DNA of 64,000 nucleotides, from contig AP021856.1 of the NCBI GenBank assembly GCA_017347445.1, forward strand, positions 1,186,613-1,250,612, read 5' to 3'. Within the stretch, counting starts at the first letter, position 1; each line of letters begins with the position of its first letter. Shown here one piece after another: positions 35,333 to 51,447 of the stretch. The translations under genes were made by a program, and so were the position numbers. A model generated the notes under the pieces. It did not search any database and was not told where the DNA came from. It worked only from the letters and a program-made list of their open reading frames with translations. Source of the stretch: Candidatus Brocadia pituitae. Its GTDB lineage: Bacteria > Planctomycetota > Brocadiia > Brocadiales > Brocadiaceae.

Positions 35333-36697
35333 TCACATTCCAGGATAACAACTCGTGCCGTGTTCATAAATATCTATGCCACTGCGTTCAATGTTAACAG
35401 GCACCCGAAGACCAAACGTTCGTTTTAAAACAAAGAAAAAAAGGAAACCAGCAGAAAAACACCAGGCAACCAAAGTAATACAGGAGATAAACTGTGCCAG
35501 TAACTGCCAGCCAGAACCCATGATAAGCCCTTTTACCCCCCCATACGTTCCGTCAGAAAAGATACCTACCGAAAGTAACCCCCACAATCCATTTGCGCCA
35601 TGCACAGAAATAGCGCCGACCGGGTCGTCTATTTTTAATTTGGTTTCAATACTGTACAGGGAAATGCGTGTGATTAAAGAAGCAATAATTCCTATAATGA
35701 TTGCAGCCCACGGCGGTACATATGCGCCTGATGCTGTGATTGCGACACAGCCTGCCAGCGCACCGTTACAGGTCATGATGATATCCGACTTTTTTGTTAT
35801 GCGAAAGGAAAGATAGAGAAGGGTAACGGCTCCTGCTGCGGCAGCCAAAAAGGTATTTACCGCTATGATAGACACCCGAAGTTCTGTTACTGCGAGGGTG
35901 CTTCCTGCGTTAAAGCCGAACCATCCAAAAATTAAGGTAAGGGTGCCGATTACGATGTAAAGCAGATTATGCCCATGAATAACGTTGGAGCTTCCATCGG
36001 GATTGTACTTTCCGTATCGCGGCCCTACCATCCACGCTGCAATGAATGCAGTCAAACCACCTATTCCATGTACTAACCCCGCGCCAGCAAAATCCCGGGC
36101 ACCCGCTCCAAATGGCAGCAATTCCAGCCACCCCTTTCCCCACATCCAGTGTCCGAATACAGGATAAAGCACCGCGCATAAAAAGATACTATAAATGATA
36201 TGTGCATGAAATTTAAAACGTTCTGCCACTGCACCCGTTACGATGGTGCAGGAAGTGGCAGCGAACATAATCTGAAACATCCACAGTGCTGCTGTTGATA
36301 CGTCATAAGAATCGCCAAGCAGTAAAAATCCGCTATAACCAATAAAACGATTTCCTAACGATAGCCCGGGGGCCAGCCTGGAACCACCAAACATCAGACC
36401 AAACCCGATGAGCCAAAAAACCAATGCCCCAATACAAAAATCGATAAAGCTCATGGAGAGATAATTGAGCGTATTTTTCTTTTGAACAAAGCCTGCGCCA
36501 AGGAAGGTGAACCCGGCTTGCATATTAAACACCAAAAAGGCGCTAAGTAACGTCCATGCAAAGTTTACAGAGAATTTCAATCCCTGTATGCTTTCAGAAT
36601 AGGTATTGGCACCGCTAGGATCTCCGGCAAATACCTGATTGAATAAAAAAAATCCCGTCCCAGCGATAAGCATAAGAAAGAATATGAACGTGCGCAT
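35333..36697 (-). CDS. amt: Ammonium transporter (amt2)
   Basis: 454 aa. A signal-peptide-like N-terminus (MRTFIFFLMLIAGTGFFLF, processed near FAG) precedes the Amt helices. The pore signature has Asp and His in ARDFAGAGLVHGIGG and the second His in PVGAISVHGANGLWG; FNAGSTLA and GNRFIGYSG are Amt-type loops. It is closer to amt3 than to amt1 in these motifs. The frame is open to a TTG at 36754, but that codon lies inside a strong hairpin (36726-36762), so the ATG at 36697 is preferred. It is the third gene of amt3-glnB2-amt2. Confidence 0.92.
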   Translation of the reverse strand: MRTFIFFLMLIAGTGFFLFNQVFAGDPSGANTYSESIQGLKFSVNFAWTLLSAFLVFNMQAGFTFLGAGFVQKKNTLNYLSMSFIDFCIGALVFWLIGFGLMFGGSRLAPGLSLGNRFIGYSGFLLLGDSYDVSTAALWMFQIMFAATSCTIVTGAVAERFKFHAHIIYSIFLCAVLYPVFGHWMWGKGWLELLPFGAGARDFAGAGLVHGIGGLTAFIAAWMVGPRYGKYNPDGSSNVIHGHNLLYIVIGTLTLIFGWFGFNAGSTLAVTELRVSIIAVNTFLAAAAGAVTLLYLSFRITKKSDIIMTCNGALAGCVAITASGAYVPPWAAIIIGIIASLITRISLYSIETKLKIDDPVGAISVHGANGLWGLLSVGIFSDGTYGGVKGLIMGSGWQLLAQFISCITLVAWCFSAGFLFFFVLKRTFGLRVPVNIERSGIDIYEHGTSCYPGM

Positions 36698-36725
36698 TTT
36701 CAATATGATGCCTTTGTCGAAAGTG

Positions 36726-36762
36726 CGGATATTGTCCCGCATTCCACGGGACAATATCCGCT
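36726..36762 (-). promoter_or_regulatory. Intercistronic 15-bp hairpin between glnB2 and amt2
   Basis: GCGGATATTGTCCCG and CGGGACAATATCCGC form a perfect 15-bp stem with a seven-base loop, 25 bases after the glnB2 stop and 29 bases before the amt2 start. No T-run follows, so stabilisation or translational control is likelier than termination. Confidence 0.55.
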
Positions 36763-36786
36763 AAAAAGTTGTTTAACCTACTTGGG

Positions 36787-37125
36787 TTAAACTGCCGTAT
36801 CGCCTGACTCTTTTGTGCGAATACGATATACGTTTTCTACATTGAAAACAAAAATCTTTCCATCCCCGATGCTCCCGGTTTGCGCCTCGTTAATAATGGT
36901 ATTAACAATCTTTTCCACATCGGCATCCTGGACCGTAATCTCAACCTTTATTTTTGAAAGAAGATCGACTCTGTACCTCCTTCCACGCCATACCTCGCTG
37001 ATGCCCTTTTGGCTGCCATGCCCTTTTACCTCGGTAACTGTCATTCCCGGGTAACCTAATTCCGTCAGGGCATCCCGGACAATGTTAAACTTCTCTGGCC
37101 TGATTATTGCTTCTATTTTCTTCAT
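36787..37125 (-). CDS. P-II nitrogen regulatory protein, Tyr51 form
   Basis: 112 aa. [13 protein letters not shown] opens the protein and the [11 protein letters not shown]-loop is present. The T-loop reads KGHGSQKGISEVWRGRRYRVD, placing Tyr at position 51, so uridylylation-type modification remains possible, unlike the paralogue at 31924. It lies between amt3 (56 bases upstream) and amt2 (89 bases downstream) on the same strand, implying one transcript. The start is the ATG giving MKKIEA rather than the four-codon longer frame. Confidence 0.93.
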   Translation of the reverse strand: MKKIEAIIRPEKFNIVRDALTELGYPGMTVTEVKGHGSQKGISEVWRGRRYRVDLLSKIKVEITVQDADVEKIVNTIINEAQTGSIGDGKIFVFNVENVYRIRTKESGDTAV

Positions 37126-37181
37126 ACCATTCTCCAATCATGAAAAATACCGTAAAACGACTTCATTCTCACATGCAATCT

Positions 37182-38735
37182 TTATTTCTTTTTTGACGGT
37201 TTTACCAATGCATAAACCCATCTGCCAAGCTTCTCAGAGTAGATCTTTTCCCGCGTAGCATCGTTGCTTATTGCTTTCTCTAGGATAGTCAGTTGCTCCC
37301 TGTCCATCTCTTTCTGTTCCTCAACCACCTCTCCGGAAATGGAAACAAGGCCTTCCTCTACCGGATAACATGGTGAACCGTGAACATGTATGTCTATACC
37401 TTCAAACTCAACAAGATCGGACACCCTGACGCCCATATGATATCTTATTATATAAAACACGCCGCAGCCCCATGCAAATGCCCAGGCCAAAGCGACTACC
37501 GTCCCAATAAACTGTGCCAGCAATTGCCATCCGGAACCGGTAATTAATCCACTTACCCCACCATAGGTGCCATCTGCAAAGAAGCCTACCGCTAGCATGC
37601 CCCACATACCGTTTGCAGCGTGTACAGCAACTGCACCCAGCGGGTCGTCAACCTTCATCTTTACTTCTACAAGCCAAATCGACCCCCGCATGATTAGTGC
37701 AGCAATCACTCCAATTACCACGGAAGCCCATGGTGCAACATAGGCGCAAGGGGCCGTTATTGCAACTAACCCGGCAAGCGCACCGTTACAAAGATAAGGG
37801 ACATCAATATAACCTGTCATACCCCATGTTAAAAACAACATCACCGTGGCGCCGGCTGCGGCAGCAATAAAGGTGTTCGCTGCAATTACAGAAATACGCA
37901 AATCGGTTGCTGCAAGGGTACTGCCGGCATTAAAACCAAACCATCCAAATGCAAGGATAAGAGTGCCGATAACCATATAAGCAATATTGTGACCTGGAAT
38001 AGCGTTGGGAGAACCGTCCGGATTATATTTTCCTTTCCTCGGACCAAGTGCCCAAGCCCCAACAAATGCCATGACGCCTCCAATCGTATGTACACATGCG
38101 CAACCGGCAAAATCTTTTACCCCTGCGCCAAAGGGTATTGTGCTCAACCAACCGCCACCCCAGACCCAATGCCCGTATATCGGATAGATCAGGCCACACA
38201 TCAGGAAACTATAAATAAGATATGCTCCGAATTTCAATCGTTCCGCTACCGCACCCGCAATAATTGAAACTGTCTTCGTGGCAAATACCATTTGGAAGAG
38301 CCAAAACATGATTGTTTGCACATCATATGAGTTTCCCAAGAGCATAAACCCATCGCTCCCAATCCAGGCATTGCCATCTTCAAGTCCTGGCGCTAATTTT
38401 GAGCCGCCAAACATCAACCCAAACCCAAAAAAATAAAAGACCATTGCGCCAAACGTTGAATCTATAAAGCAATGTGCCATATAACTCAGCATGTTCTTTT
38501 GCCTTAAAAAGCCACCTAAAAAAGCAAATCCTGCCTGCATGATAAATACTAAAAAAGCACCCAATAACGTCCAGATAAAATTGACAGAAAATTTTAACCC
38601 TGCAATGCTGTCCGAATAAGTTTGAGAACCGTTGGGGTCTCCTGCGTAAACAATCCCAGTTCCTAAAACAAATATCCCCGTAGTTACAAACAGCAACCAC
38701 GCACTTATTTTTAATTTGTTGGTAAAGAATTTCAT
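37182..38735 (-). CDS. amt: Ammonium transporter with C-terminal extension (amt3)
   Basis: 517 aa, the longest of the three. A signal peptide (cleaved near VYA) precedes the Amt domain; the pore motifs are VKDFAGCACVHTIGG and PLGAVAVHAANGMWG. After the usual cytosolic tail (IHVHGSPCYPVEEG) there are about 60 extra residues, mostly charged and helical (GEVVEEQKEMDREQLTILEK), not present in amt1 or amt2. The ATG at 38735 follows GGAGAGGGAC. It is the first gene of amt3-glnB2-amt2. Confidence 0.93.
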   Translation of the reverse strand: MKFFTNKLKISAWLLFVTTGIFVLGTGIVYAGDPNGSQTYSDSIAGLKFSVNFIWTLLGAFLVFIMQAGFAFLGGFLRQKNMLSYMAHCFIDSTFGAMVFYFFGFGLMFGGSKLAPGLEDGNAWIGSDGFMLLGNSYDVQTIMFWLFQMVFATKTVSIIAGAVAERLKFGAYLIYSFLMCGLIYPIYGHWVWGGGWLSTIPFGAGVKDFAGCACVHTIGGVMAFVGAWALGPRKGKYNPDGSPNAIPGHNIAYMVIGTLILAFGWFGFNAGSTLAATDLRISVIAANTFIAAAAGATVMLFLTWGMTGYIDVPYLCNGALAGLVAITAPCAYVAPWASVVIGVIAALIMRGSIWLVEVKMKVDDPLGAVAVHAANGMWGMLAVGFFADGTYGGVSGLITGSGWQLLAQFIGTVVALAWAFAWGCGVFYIIRYHMGVRVSDLVEFEGIDIHVHGSPCYPVEEGLVSISGEVVEEQKEMDREQLTILEKAISNDATREKIYSEKLGRWVYALVKPSKKK

Positions 38736-39165
38736 AAATTTAGTCCCTCTCCTCATAAAATACTACATTTTATCCAGATTAATTACAACAATATTAAAAT
38801 TTTTTATTTATATCGTCCACCTCCTTATGACCAATTTCCATTGAATATAATTGATGAAGAGAAAAAAATAAATTCTATCATGTCGCATGTAGAGTCTTTA
38901 ACTAAACTAATCTAAAAGGAGCAATTATTATTCCAATAATACGTTATAATCCTTTTGCAACCCATTCATGAGAGATCATTGTAATTACGTATTTCATTTG
39001 TAGTAAATTAGATATAACTTATTCATAATCAAAATAATCATGGTGTAAAAGCCATTATAAAAGAAAAATGGCATTATACATTATTCTCCCTAGTCTATTC
39101 GTTGATTTTTCACAACTATAAATTTTCATGGTGCTTATAACATTATCTCAAACTACCTGCCAATC

Positions 39166-39179: not shown

Positions 39180-39272
39180 ATGCAGGATACGCTTCTCGTT
39201 GTCTTTATTCGATGAAATAGTTTTAATTTTTTAAAATTTTCGTTCACAAATAGTCTGATTTCTGGTACAAGT

Positions 39273-39278
39273 TATAGA
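39273..39278 (+). promoter_or_regulatory. Possible -10 box for the candidate RNA
   Basis: TATAGA lies just before the closing stem of the RNA. The -35 region (near TAGTCT at 39251) is weak. Confidence 0.35.
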
Positions 39279-39366
39279 TAGTCGGTGTTGGGGAAAAGCC
39301 TTGGTAGCAATTAGCTCAGTTTTGGGCTTATCTGAGCAGCTTCAACACCGACGCTCTTTTTTATTA
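39279..39366 (+). ncRNA. Candidate structured small RNA ending in a terminator-like stem
   Basis: An outer stem GTCGGTGTTG (39281-39290) pairs perfectly with CAACACCGAC (39343-39352) and is followed by GCTCTTTTTT. Inside, GCTCAG (39314-39319) pairs with CTGAGC (39332-39337), and AAGCC (39296-39300) can pair with GGCTT (39325-39329) in that hairpin's loop, giving a pseudoknot. I do not recognise the class. It may be a free small RNA or a leader element of moxR, 115 bases downstream. Confidence 0.5.
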
Positions 39367-39480
39367 TCTGGTTATCCGCTTGATTGCAATTTTTGCTATA
39401 TCTAGTGCCATTCTATGCCAAAAATATACTACATTTTGTGAGTATTGTAATCAAGCGTACAGCCATATTTTATTATTGCT

Positions 39481-40494
39481 ATGAACCATACCGAAACTGA
39501 TAAGACAGATCATCAGACTATAGAAAAAATAGTAAACGGCCGCCGTAAGATAAAAAAGGAGATTGCCAAGATTATCATTGGGCAGGAAGAAGTGATCGAC
39601 TATCTTCTTGTTGCCCTTTTTTGTAAAGGGCATTGCCTCTTTGTAGGAGTGCCGGGGCTTGCCAAGACACTGCTGGTTAGTACCCTGGCAGATGTTTTGA
39701 ACCTGAAGTTTAATCGTATTCAGTTTACCCCGGATCTTATGCCGGCAGACATTACCGGAACGGATATTTTAGAACAAGACCACGCAACGGGAAAAAGATT
39801 CTTCAAGTTTATTAAAGGCCCGATCTTTTCCAACATTCTCCTTGCCGACGAGATCAACCGCACACCTCCAAAAACACAGGCAGCGTTGCTTCAGTCAATG
39901 CAAGAGTATAAAGTAACAGCGAGCGGAACCACCTATCTTCTCGATCTCCCCTTTATTGTCTTTGCTACCCAAAATCCCATTGAGCAGGAGGGGACATATC
40001 CCTTGCCAGAGGCGCAGCTTGACCGTTTCATGTTTCAAATAGATGTCCAGTATCCTTCTGCGGAAGAAGAGCTTGAAATTGTGCGAACTACAACATCTGC
40101 TTTTAAACCAACAGCAGACAAGGTGTTCAATCCCACGGAGATTATGGAGCTTCAGGATTTAGTTACCAGGGTGCCTGTTGCCGATTATGTGCTCGAATAT
40201 GCCATCAGATTGGTCCGTGCGTCGAGACCAACAGACCCCAGTGCTCCCGACTTTATAAAAAAATGGATTAGCTGGGGGGCTGGACCGCGAGCGTCTCAAT
40301 TCCTTATTCTTGGAGGTAAGGCGCGTGCACTTCTTGACGGGAGATTTGCCGCTACCTGTAACGATGTGCGCGCAATTGCCAGGCCGATCCTGCAGCACCG
40401 TATTATCACTAATTTCAATGCTGAGGCAGAAGGAAAAACATCCTTGCATGTGATCGAGCAATTGCTTGATACTCTTAAAGAACACGCAAAATAA
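39481..40494 (+). CDS. MoxR-family AAA+ ATPase
   Basis: 337 aa. Walker A is GVPGLAKTLL, Walker B ILLADEINRTPPKTQAALLQSMQE, with sensor-1 FATQNPIEQEGTYPLPEAQLDRF, all typical of MoxR. These ATPases act with VWA proteins as chaperones or metal-insertion machines for envelope or redox proteins. It begins a run with a DUF58 gene (23 bases on) and a BatA-like gene, the standard grouping. Confidence 0.92.
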   Translation: MNHTETDKTDHQTIEKIVNGRRKIKKEIAKIIIGQEEVIDYLLVALFCKGHCLFVGVPGLAKTLLVSTLADVLNLKFNRIQFTPDLMPADITGTDILEQDHATGKRFFKFIKGPIFSNILLADEINRTPPKTQAALLQSMQEYKVTASGTTYLLDLPFIVFATQNPIEQEGTYPLPEAQLDRFMFQIDVQYPSAEEELEIVRTTTSAFKPTADKVFNPTEIMELQDLVTRVPVADYVLEYAIRLVRASRPTDPSAPDFIKKWISWGAGPRASQFLILGGKARALLDGRFAATCNDVRAIARPILQHRIITNFNAEAEGKTSLHVIEQLLDTLKEHAK

Positions 40495-48889: not shown

Positions 48890-49326
48890 CTGTAATCCCT
48901 CAGGACGTGTAAATGCATAGGCGCTCTGCCCACTACCGGCGCAAAGCTTAAAATCAAGCCCGTTTCGACTTGAGATTTAGCCAAGTAATACTCCTTCATA
49001 CGGTATTTCCTTAATACTTATTAATTTATCCTTACAGCTCATTTTAGTCAAGGGATAATAATGAGCTGAATGGTAGGGGCGAAGCATTTGTTGAAATCAG
49101 TGTAGACAAGTTCCTGCTCTTGACAACAAATGCTTCGCCCTTATACTGCTGGAACTTTTCAAAAGATAAACTATTACAAAATTTTATTTTTCCATTGACA
49201 GGGAAAATATATTTGCGGGTCATCGTGTAGTAGTGTGGGTAAAAAAGAGAGTAAAATGGTATAAGTTGGTTTTAGATAAAGGGAGAAGATCTTTTAAGGG
49301 GTTTGTAAAATCTGTATGATTAGCCT
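48890..49326. other. Intergenic region with an 18-base inverted repeat
   Basis: No gene seen. GGGGCGAAGCATTTGTTG (49076-49093) and CAACAAATGCTTCGCCC (49124-49140) form a long stem around a 30-base loop, typical of a palindromic repeat. The region may include the 5' edge of the broken ISL3 element, whose end was not found. Confidence 0.5.
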
Positions 49327-50294: not shown

Positions 50295-50992
50295 GTGGGT
50301 GTCAAACCTTGATTAGGGGGGCGATGGAAACGTAGCCTTCTGAAGCCCATCGACAAAGTCTGCAATAAGGCAGGCGAGCAACTATCCGGGTTGTAACGAA
50401 CGTGAACGTAGAAGTAGCCTCGTAAAGATGTGATTTCGCTGGTCGAGCCTTTCACAAATAGGCGAAGACAGAATTCTTTTGCCATACTGGTTAATAAGGT
50501 ATAAGGACGGTGACGGGGTATCAGCGGCGACACGGATAGAAAGAAGCGGTATCAACTGGGGAAACCCTCCTTGTCCCTGATAGAAGTATCAGGAGCAAGG
50601 TAAGCCTTATAAGTTGAAAGGCGAAGTAGGCTGACAGGCGAGAGGGTGGCGGATGAGTTCGTAGTAGTGAGGATGGTAAGGACAACATAACCTGACCGGA
50701 GCGAAGGGACTCTGCTGTATCTCAAATCTTTCTTTGGAGGTGCGGTAGGGAAGAATGATAAAAACTTCCATAAGTCTACAGGAGCTGAGGGGGAAGATAT
50801 ACAGCAAGGCGAAGACTGATTGATTTTGGTCGATTAGTGGACATGCCTTGCTGAGAAGGAAACAGGAAAGCCGTATGAGGGAAAACCTCACGTACGGTTT
50901 GATGAGAAGATGCTGGAAATAGGGTATGGTTGAGATGGTGTGACACTCTCAGAGGAAACGGAGAGAAACGGGGAAGACAAACCTCAACCTAT
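50295..50992 (+). ncRNA. Group II intron lacking its reverse transcriptase ORF
   Basis: Domain V is clear at 50867-50900 (34 bases): AAAGCC...GGTTT pairing with AGC triad at 50869, and the inner TGAGG/CCTCA stem. The 5' end begins GTGGGTG, consistent with the GTGYG family start. A downstream helix GGTTGAG (50928-50934) / CTCAACC (50983-50989) is a candidate domain VI, giving a 3' end near 50992. No intron-encoded protein frame is visible anywhere in the ~700 bases. The 3' boundary is uncertain. Confidence 0.8.
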
Positions 50993-51447
50993 AGCCACTA
51001 CGCCGGTGTTTTACTCTACATTATAAATAAGCCAGGAGAAGTCAGGTAGACATTCTATGTCAAGCTCCTTTTTTTCTTGTAGGAAAAAAGCCAGGTAGGG
51101 TAGGCCTCGCCTACCATTTTTCAATTTTACACGGATAACTTGCGTGGATGCGGAACGAATGAAATGGATGGAATGATTTTGGCATTAAACGAATTATAGC
51201 GATGGTGAGACAGTGATTGTCTTGCAACATGTTAATGGATTTGATGTGGCAGGTGGTGCCATGCCCTACATGAACAACGTGTAGCCGCACGGCTTTAGCC
51301 TGCGGGGTTTTCAACAAATACACGCTTTTGCAATTGGTAGCCGCCATGTTCATCCTTGGGTTTAAAGGGATGCGGCTACTTTCAGGAATAGGCCCGGGGG
51401 TTTTTACTCTTGCTGTTTGAGTCTGGAAGATTGATTTAATGCCTGAT
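50993..51447. other. Intergenic region after the intron, with direct repeat copy 1
   Basis: The sequence right after the intron does not continue the transposase recognisably, so the 3' exon seems deleted. The stretch 51094-51190 is repeated at 52287-52387. Confidence 0.5.
51094..51190 (+). repeat. Direct repeat, copy 1 (beside the VapBC-like pair)
   Basis: Begins with the hairpin GGTAGGGTAGGC...GCCTACC and contains TTGCGTGGATGCGGA and GAATGAAATG. Copy 2 at 52287-52387 shares these blocks in the same order. Confidence 0.65.

Follow-up and report, generated by a model that had tools for sequence, protein, structure and literature searches.

A near-invariant structured RNA, probably of an undescribed class, upstream of moxR, truA or cobS in three families of anammox bacteria

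Hairpin-type pseudoknot riboswitches, such as SAM-V, preQ1 and others, are small RNAs with a near-invariant core, in which the loop of a hairpin pairs with a strand outside it. The HMP-PP (thiS) riboswitch is an aptamer embedded in a terminator, and drew attention through a possible pseudoknot and a loop of unusual conservation; HET-P genes are the only ones with which thiS RNAs associate (PMC6478431). 6S RNA is co-transcribed with ygfA, an arrangement that is widely conserved (PMC2848244). Anammox bacteria cause much of the nitrogen loss from the oceans, about half by a quoted estimate, and a transcriptome study of Kuenenia filtered out reads from annotated structural RNAs ahead of its analysis and is silent on moxR (PMC7438415). 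The open-access literature, outside of which most subscription journals lie, yielded no paper on a regulatory RNA of anammox bacteria and none describing the RNA reported here. Neither Kuenenia nor moxR nor truA is named in a 2010 survey of 104 motifs.

The window analysed here is a 64-kb stretch (64,000 nt) of the genome of Candidatus Brocadia pituitae, its genus (g1) being the one to which the Brocadia records belong. A sequence-only reading had singled out a structured RNA of this window, with a possible pseudoknot, upstream of moxR. Its perfect 10-bp outer stem (P1) is present as described, except that it begins at 39281, two bases later than the start given for the element (39279). The inner 6-bp hairpin (P2), the complementarity of AAGCC in the leading strand to GGCTT in the hairpin loop, and the T-run after the stem were all confirmed (Table 1). 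The two pseudoknot strands make six pairs if a terminal U.G is counted, and otherwise five.

Table 1. Features of the RNA locus and the adjacent gene (window coordinates).
Feature	Position	Strand	Remarks
Promoter-like site	TTCACA 39243-39248, 17-nt spacer, TACAAG 39266-39271	+	same place in Brocadiaceae
P1 closing stem	39281-39290 (GTCGGTGTTG) with 39343-39352 (CAACACCGAC)	+	perfect 10 bp
P1 extension	39291-39293 with 39340-39342	+	G.U, G.U, G-C
Near-invariant strand GGGGAAAAGCCTTG	39290..39303	+	13 of 14 columns invariant (35 sequences)
Alternative local hairpin TGGGG/CCTTG	39289..39303	+	can form in 35 of 35 sequences, without covariation
Putative pseudoknot, 5′ strand	AAGCCT 39296-39301	+	part of near-invariant strand
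P2 hairpin	GCTCAG 39314-39319 / CTGAGC 39332-39337	+	12-base loop TTTTGGGCTTAT
Putative pseudoknot, 3′ strand	GGGCTT 39324-39329	+	in near-invariant P2 loop
T6 run after P1	39357-39362	+	intrinsic-terminator-like end
moxR (AAA_3 ATPase)	39481..40494	+	Pfam PF07726; heads moxR-DUF58-batA

The RNA is common to Brocadia, Kuenenia, Jettenia and Loosdrechtia (all Brocadiaceae), Scalindua and Anammoxibacter. A covariance model (R1), built from 35 distinct sequences, detected it in 47 of 52 genomes: 30 of 33 in the Brocadiaceae (f1), 15 of 17 in the Scalindua family (f4) and both genomes of the Anammoxibacter lineage (f5). Each of the 47 carries one strong copy (E 1e-13 to 1e-24). Likewise, blastn against 59 related genomes placed the element in nearly all Brocadiaceae and in two other families of the order. 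Loss of the RNA from three Brocadiaceae genomes of genus g10 was considered and rejected: a close moxR orthologue is missing from them as well, so the region is probably unassembled.

No strong R1 match was found in f2 (presumably the Bathyanammoxibiaceae), in f3 or in the rest of the class. Nine sister-family genomes, most of them with hydrazine synthase, gave no copy of the RNA, and a laxer search of the RNA-negative genomes gave only weak matches, with E values of 0.17 or worse. In a phylum-wide sample of 392 Planctomycetota genomes, the top match outside the three families had an E value of 0.0025; each species was represented by one genome in the searches, and weak homologues can escape the stricter filters applied to large sets. 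A GTDB-wide pattern scan returned these anammox lineages and seven loci outside Planctomycetota, and nothing else. By eye, the seven loci lack the flanking stems and were judged to be chance matches, as was the only match on plasmids (32 bp). Viral contigs gave no match to the pattern, and neither strand of the window has another sequence close to either of the two conserved segments. A tie to anammox metabolism was also rejected, because the hydrazine synthase gene (hzsA) and the RNA occur apart: most f2 genomes have hzsA and are without the RNA, so that presence of the RNA tracks lineage rather than metabolism, and a search for hzsA found none in some Brocadiaceae assemblies, many of them fragmented, that do have the RNA.

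By chance alone, a perfect 10-bp inverted repeat such as P1 is unremarkable; the window has eight of this class, against 0–5 in ten Markov-randomised windows. The single-sequence fold of the RNA beats its shuffles (z = -3.1), and the strong evidence for an RNA is comparative. Within the alignment, 100% of the P2 cells and 94% of the P1 cells pair, and two-sided changes occur at three of the six P2 pairs and at five of the ten P1 pairs counted. Taken together, 97.1% of the cells of the two helices pair, and they show 36 two-sided changes compared to 12.5 in shuffles. The compensatory changes in both helices exceed those of all 500 shuffles and of all slid controls, in which paired cells drop to 28–50%. 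The sequence of P1 is very different between families, yet it pairs in every family. The test proposed with the sequence-only reading, a search of homologues for compensating base changes, thus came out in favour of both P1 and P2.

A stem followed by T6 could also represent a simple intrinsic terminator or a chance hairpin, 10-bp inverted repeats with such spacing not being rare, but this is contradicted by the near-invariant core in three families and the compensatory changes in both helices. In addition, the adjacent upstream gene is divergent here, which would leave only the RNA itself to terminate, and we regard this explanation as hardly credible. A protein-coding reading was rejected by eye, as the frame is not kept, stops fall at varying places and one sequence (L028) carries an indel. 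On the comparative evidence, the element is a genuine conserved structured RNA under strong selection, and what is said below of its function beyond this we infer.

Across the three families 31 alignment columns are invariant, mainly those of GGGGAAAAGCCUUG, AGUUUUGGGCUUAUCUG and CUUC. The pseudoknot AAGCCU/GGGCUU can form in 209 of 210 cells (99.5%), and its strands are so nearly invariant that the changes consist of two one-sided ones, both to G.U, with no two-sided change. The pairing suspected in the sequence-only reading is therefore maintained and consistent with the alignment, while compensatory change is absent and the pseudoknot is unproven. As an alternative, all 35 sequences allow a local hairpin of the YGGGG segment with CCUUG, a hairpin that could not coexist with the upper part of P1 or with the pseudoknot. 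RNAalifold alone prefers the local hairpin (columns 12-16/22-26). The P1 pair 12-67 covaries and the local-hairpin pair 12-26 does not, which favours P1 at this position, though the RNA may have two states.

Searched against Rfam 15, the region 39279-39366 gave no match at gathering score, and relaxing the threshold to E<=10 added only unrelated weak matches, so that the description of the RNA as unclassified has held against a covariance search. Together with the covariation of P1 and P2, this supports the original view of an unclassified structured RNA, either a small RNA or a transcription-terminating leader. Elsewhere in the window, Rfam detects a group II catalytic intron (RF00029, 47.9 bits) at 50866-51019. 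It is fairly probable that the RNA, almost unchanged in three anammox families, is an undescribed class, which would either sense a ligand from within the terminator or belong to a dedicated ribonucleoprotein with a housekeeping or global regulatory task.

The Brocadiaceae share a conserved promoter-like block (TTCACA-17-TAnAA) preceded by an A/T-rich stretch, and this block occurs once in the genome of the window. In most Brocadiaceae the -10 box ends 17–19 nt 5′ of the GGGG core, and the start predicted in the window (~39278-39281) falls at the foot of P1. Two genera of the Scalindua family have TTGACA-17-TAnAAT-like boxes at the corresponding place; in the other f4 and f5 genomes the boxes resemble a promoter less closely, and in a few of these genomes no more than expected by chance. 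Of the 47 sequences, 39 have a T-rich tract (at least 5 of 8) after P1, and one f5 genome is among the eight without a good U-run. A transcript that is predicted to begin with a strong stem, close to the moxR start in most Brocadiaceae, would suit a leader that acts on the downstream mRNA at the level of RNA stability or translation, the protective fold itself being the function (a 5′ stabiliser or processing signal). We consider this improbable, since a plain stabiliser would not need a near-invariant loop and strand across three families, and there is no Shine-Dalgarno sequence before moxR that could be masked; in the window none was found 5′ of moxR, DUF58 or batA.

The RNA and the gene 3′ of it invariably share a strand. 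Every Brocadiaceae locus examined has moxR in this place, most f4 genomes and the f5 genomes have truA, and one genus of the Scalindua family (g20) has cobS, so the link to moxR made in the sequence-only reading is correct for the Brocadiaceae and does not extend to the other families. Further downstream (~2 kb) in Scalindua is a thiC-like gene, identified by eye, which was not seen in the Brocadiaceae or Anammoxibacter loci read. While the downstream neighbour stays, the upstream neighbours vary and fall into 17 clusters, some of them small uncertain ORFs. In the window, the genes divergent from the RNA (35333-38756, minus strand) encode an ammonium transporter, a PII (GlnK-like) protein and a second ammonium transporter; an ammonium transporter adjoins the RNA in only part of the family. 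The truA loci of f1, f2, f3 and g20 carry no copy of the RNA, nor do the moxR orthologues of f2 and f5. As the neighbour changes between genes of no common function, and orthologues of these genes occur without the RNA, the RNA is not tied to one gene.

In most Brocadiaceae moxR starts ~20 nt past P1, which would leave hardly any space for a separate moxR promoter, and moxR there probably relies on read-through transcription from the promoter of the RNA. Insertions lengthen the gap in several species, including the window. Compared to the Brocadia relative L003, the window has an insertion of ~109 bp between the T-run and moxR (39366-39475) that carries an inverted repeat (CGCTTGATTGCA / TGTAATCAAGCG) and recurs in part (64 bp, 83%) at another place in the genome; it resembles a small dispersed repeat element. 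The corresponding gap of L016 (Kuenenia group) contains an inverted repeat, GGGCGAAGCATTTGCC...GGCAAATGCTTCGCCC, ~80-190 bases past the GGGG core. An inverted repeat starting with GGGCGAAGCATT, as in the L016 gap, is found at 49077-49140 of the window, and the two possibly belong to one repeat family common to anammox genomes.

A same-strand gene always kept downstream of the RNA, with varying genes upstream, is leader-like. This constancy, and the closeness of the moxR start to P1, would fit a cis regulator within the terminator, in which a ligand or protein bound at the pseudoknot core sets the closure of P1 and hence transcription of moxR, truA or cobS. The HMP-PP riboswitch is likewise marked by an unusually conserved terminator loop and pseudoknot (PMC6478431), and the mutually exclusive local hairpin, which can form in all sequences, would suit a switch of this type. 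However, P1 is long, stable alone and compatible with both P2 and the pseudoknot, so that there is no clear antiterminator, and the U-run is not universal. Moreover, moxR, truA and cobS share no common pathway, and the RNA is single copy even where the partner gene has changed. Regulation in cis is, in our view, the main rival explanation, though a rather unlikely one.

With modest confidence, we lean towards an autonomous small RNA gene that has P1 as its terminator and acts via the invariant core, its neighbour being transcribed by read-through. The single copy, the RNA's own signals, the invariant core and the exchangeable, unrelated neighbours favour such a gene over a single-pathway riboswitch, and co-transcription of 6S RNA with ygfA (PMC2848244) means that a conserved downstream linkage does not contradict it. 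Transcription would start from the dedicated promoter at the foot of P1, and in the folded RNA a long P1 would enclose P2, with the near-invariant GGGGAAAAGCCUUG strand pairing to the P2 loop. P1 and the U-run would usually end transcription to give a product of ~80 nt, and polymerases reading through P1 would transcribe the downstream gene (moxR here). The near-invariant pseudoknot core would be the working part, most likely binding a protein or small molecule in trans. That the RNA is transcribed, with these ends, that the pseudoknot forms in the cell, and that the core has such a partner and effect are all predictions. Against an autonomous small RNA are the leader-like gene order, the little space for a moxR promoter in most Brocadiaceae, the poor U-run in 8 of 47 sequences and the weak promoter in several f4 and f5 genomes. 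Hfq (PF17209) was absent from 20 genomes of the order and found in 5 of 14 controls, making a base-pairing small RNA of the Hfq type unlikely and a role in binding a protein or ligand, we infer, more likely. Being near-invariant and single copy in these anammox bacteria, and undetected in the other sampled Planctomycetota, the RNA makes a clear target, and the defined core, alignment and covariance model can be used to find it in transcriptomes and to fish out its partner.

Compared with described RNAs, the locus resembles the SAM-V and preQ1 type of riboswitch in its small size, loop-to-outside-strand pairing and near-invariant core, and differs in that the downstream genes have no common pathway and the RNA has no Rfam match. 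With the HMP-PP (thiS) riboswitch it shares a design rather than a sequence: a strong stem followed by U's, with a conserved loop and possible pseudoknot within the terminator. The thiS terminator and aptamer are mutually exclusive, whereas P1, P2 and the pseudoknot can coexist here, and the genes that follow (moxR, truA, cobS) are not the HET-P or thiamin thiazole genes of thiS RNAs. RF00013 (6S RNA) has matches at other places in these genomes, many of them below gathering score, and none within the window; those of Brocadia genomes are mostly below this score, which may mean that their 6S RNA has diverged. At ~80 nt and probably pseudoknotted, the RNA is unlike 6S RNA (~180 nt), but it has the arrangement of 6S RNA and ygfA, a single-copy structured RNA with a promoter-like site of its own and a gene following on the same strand.
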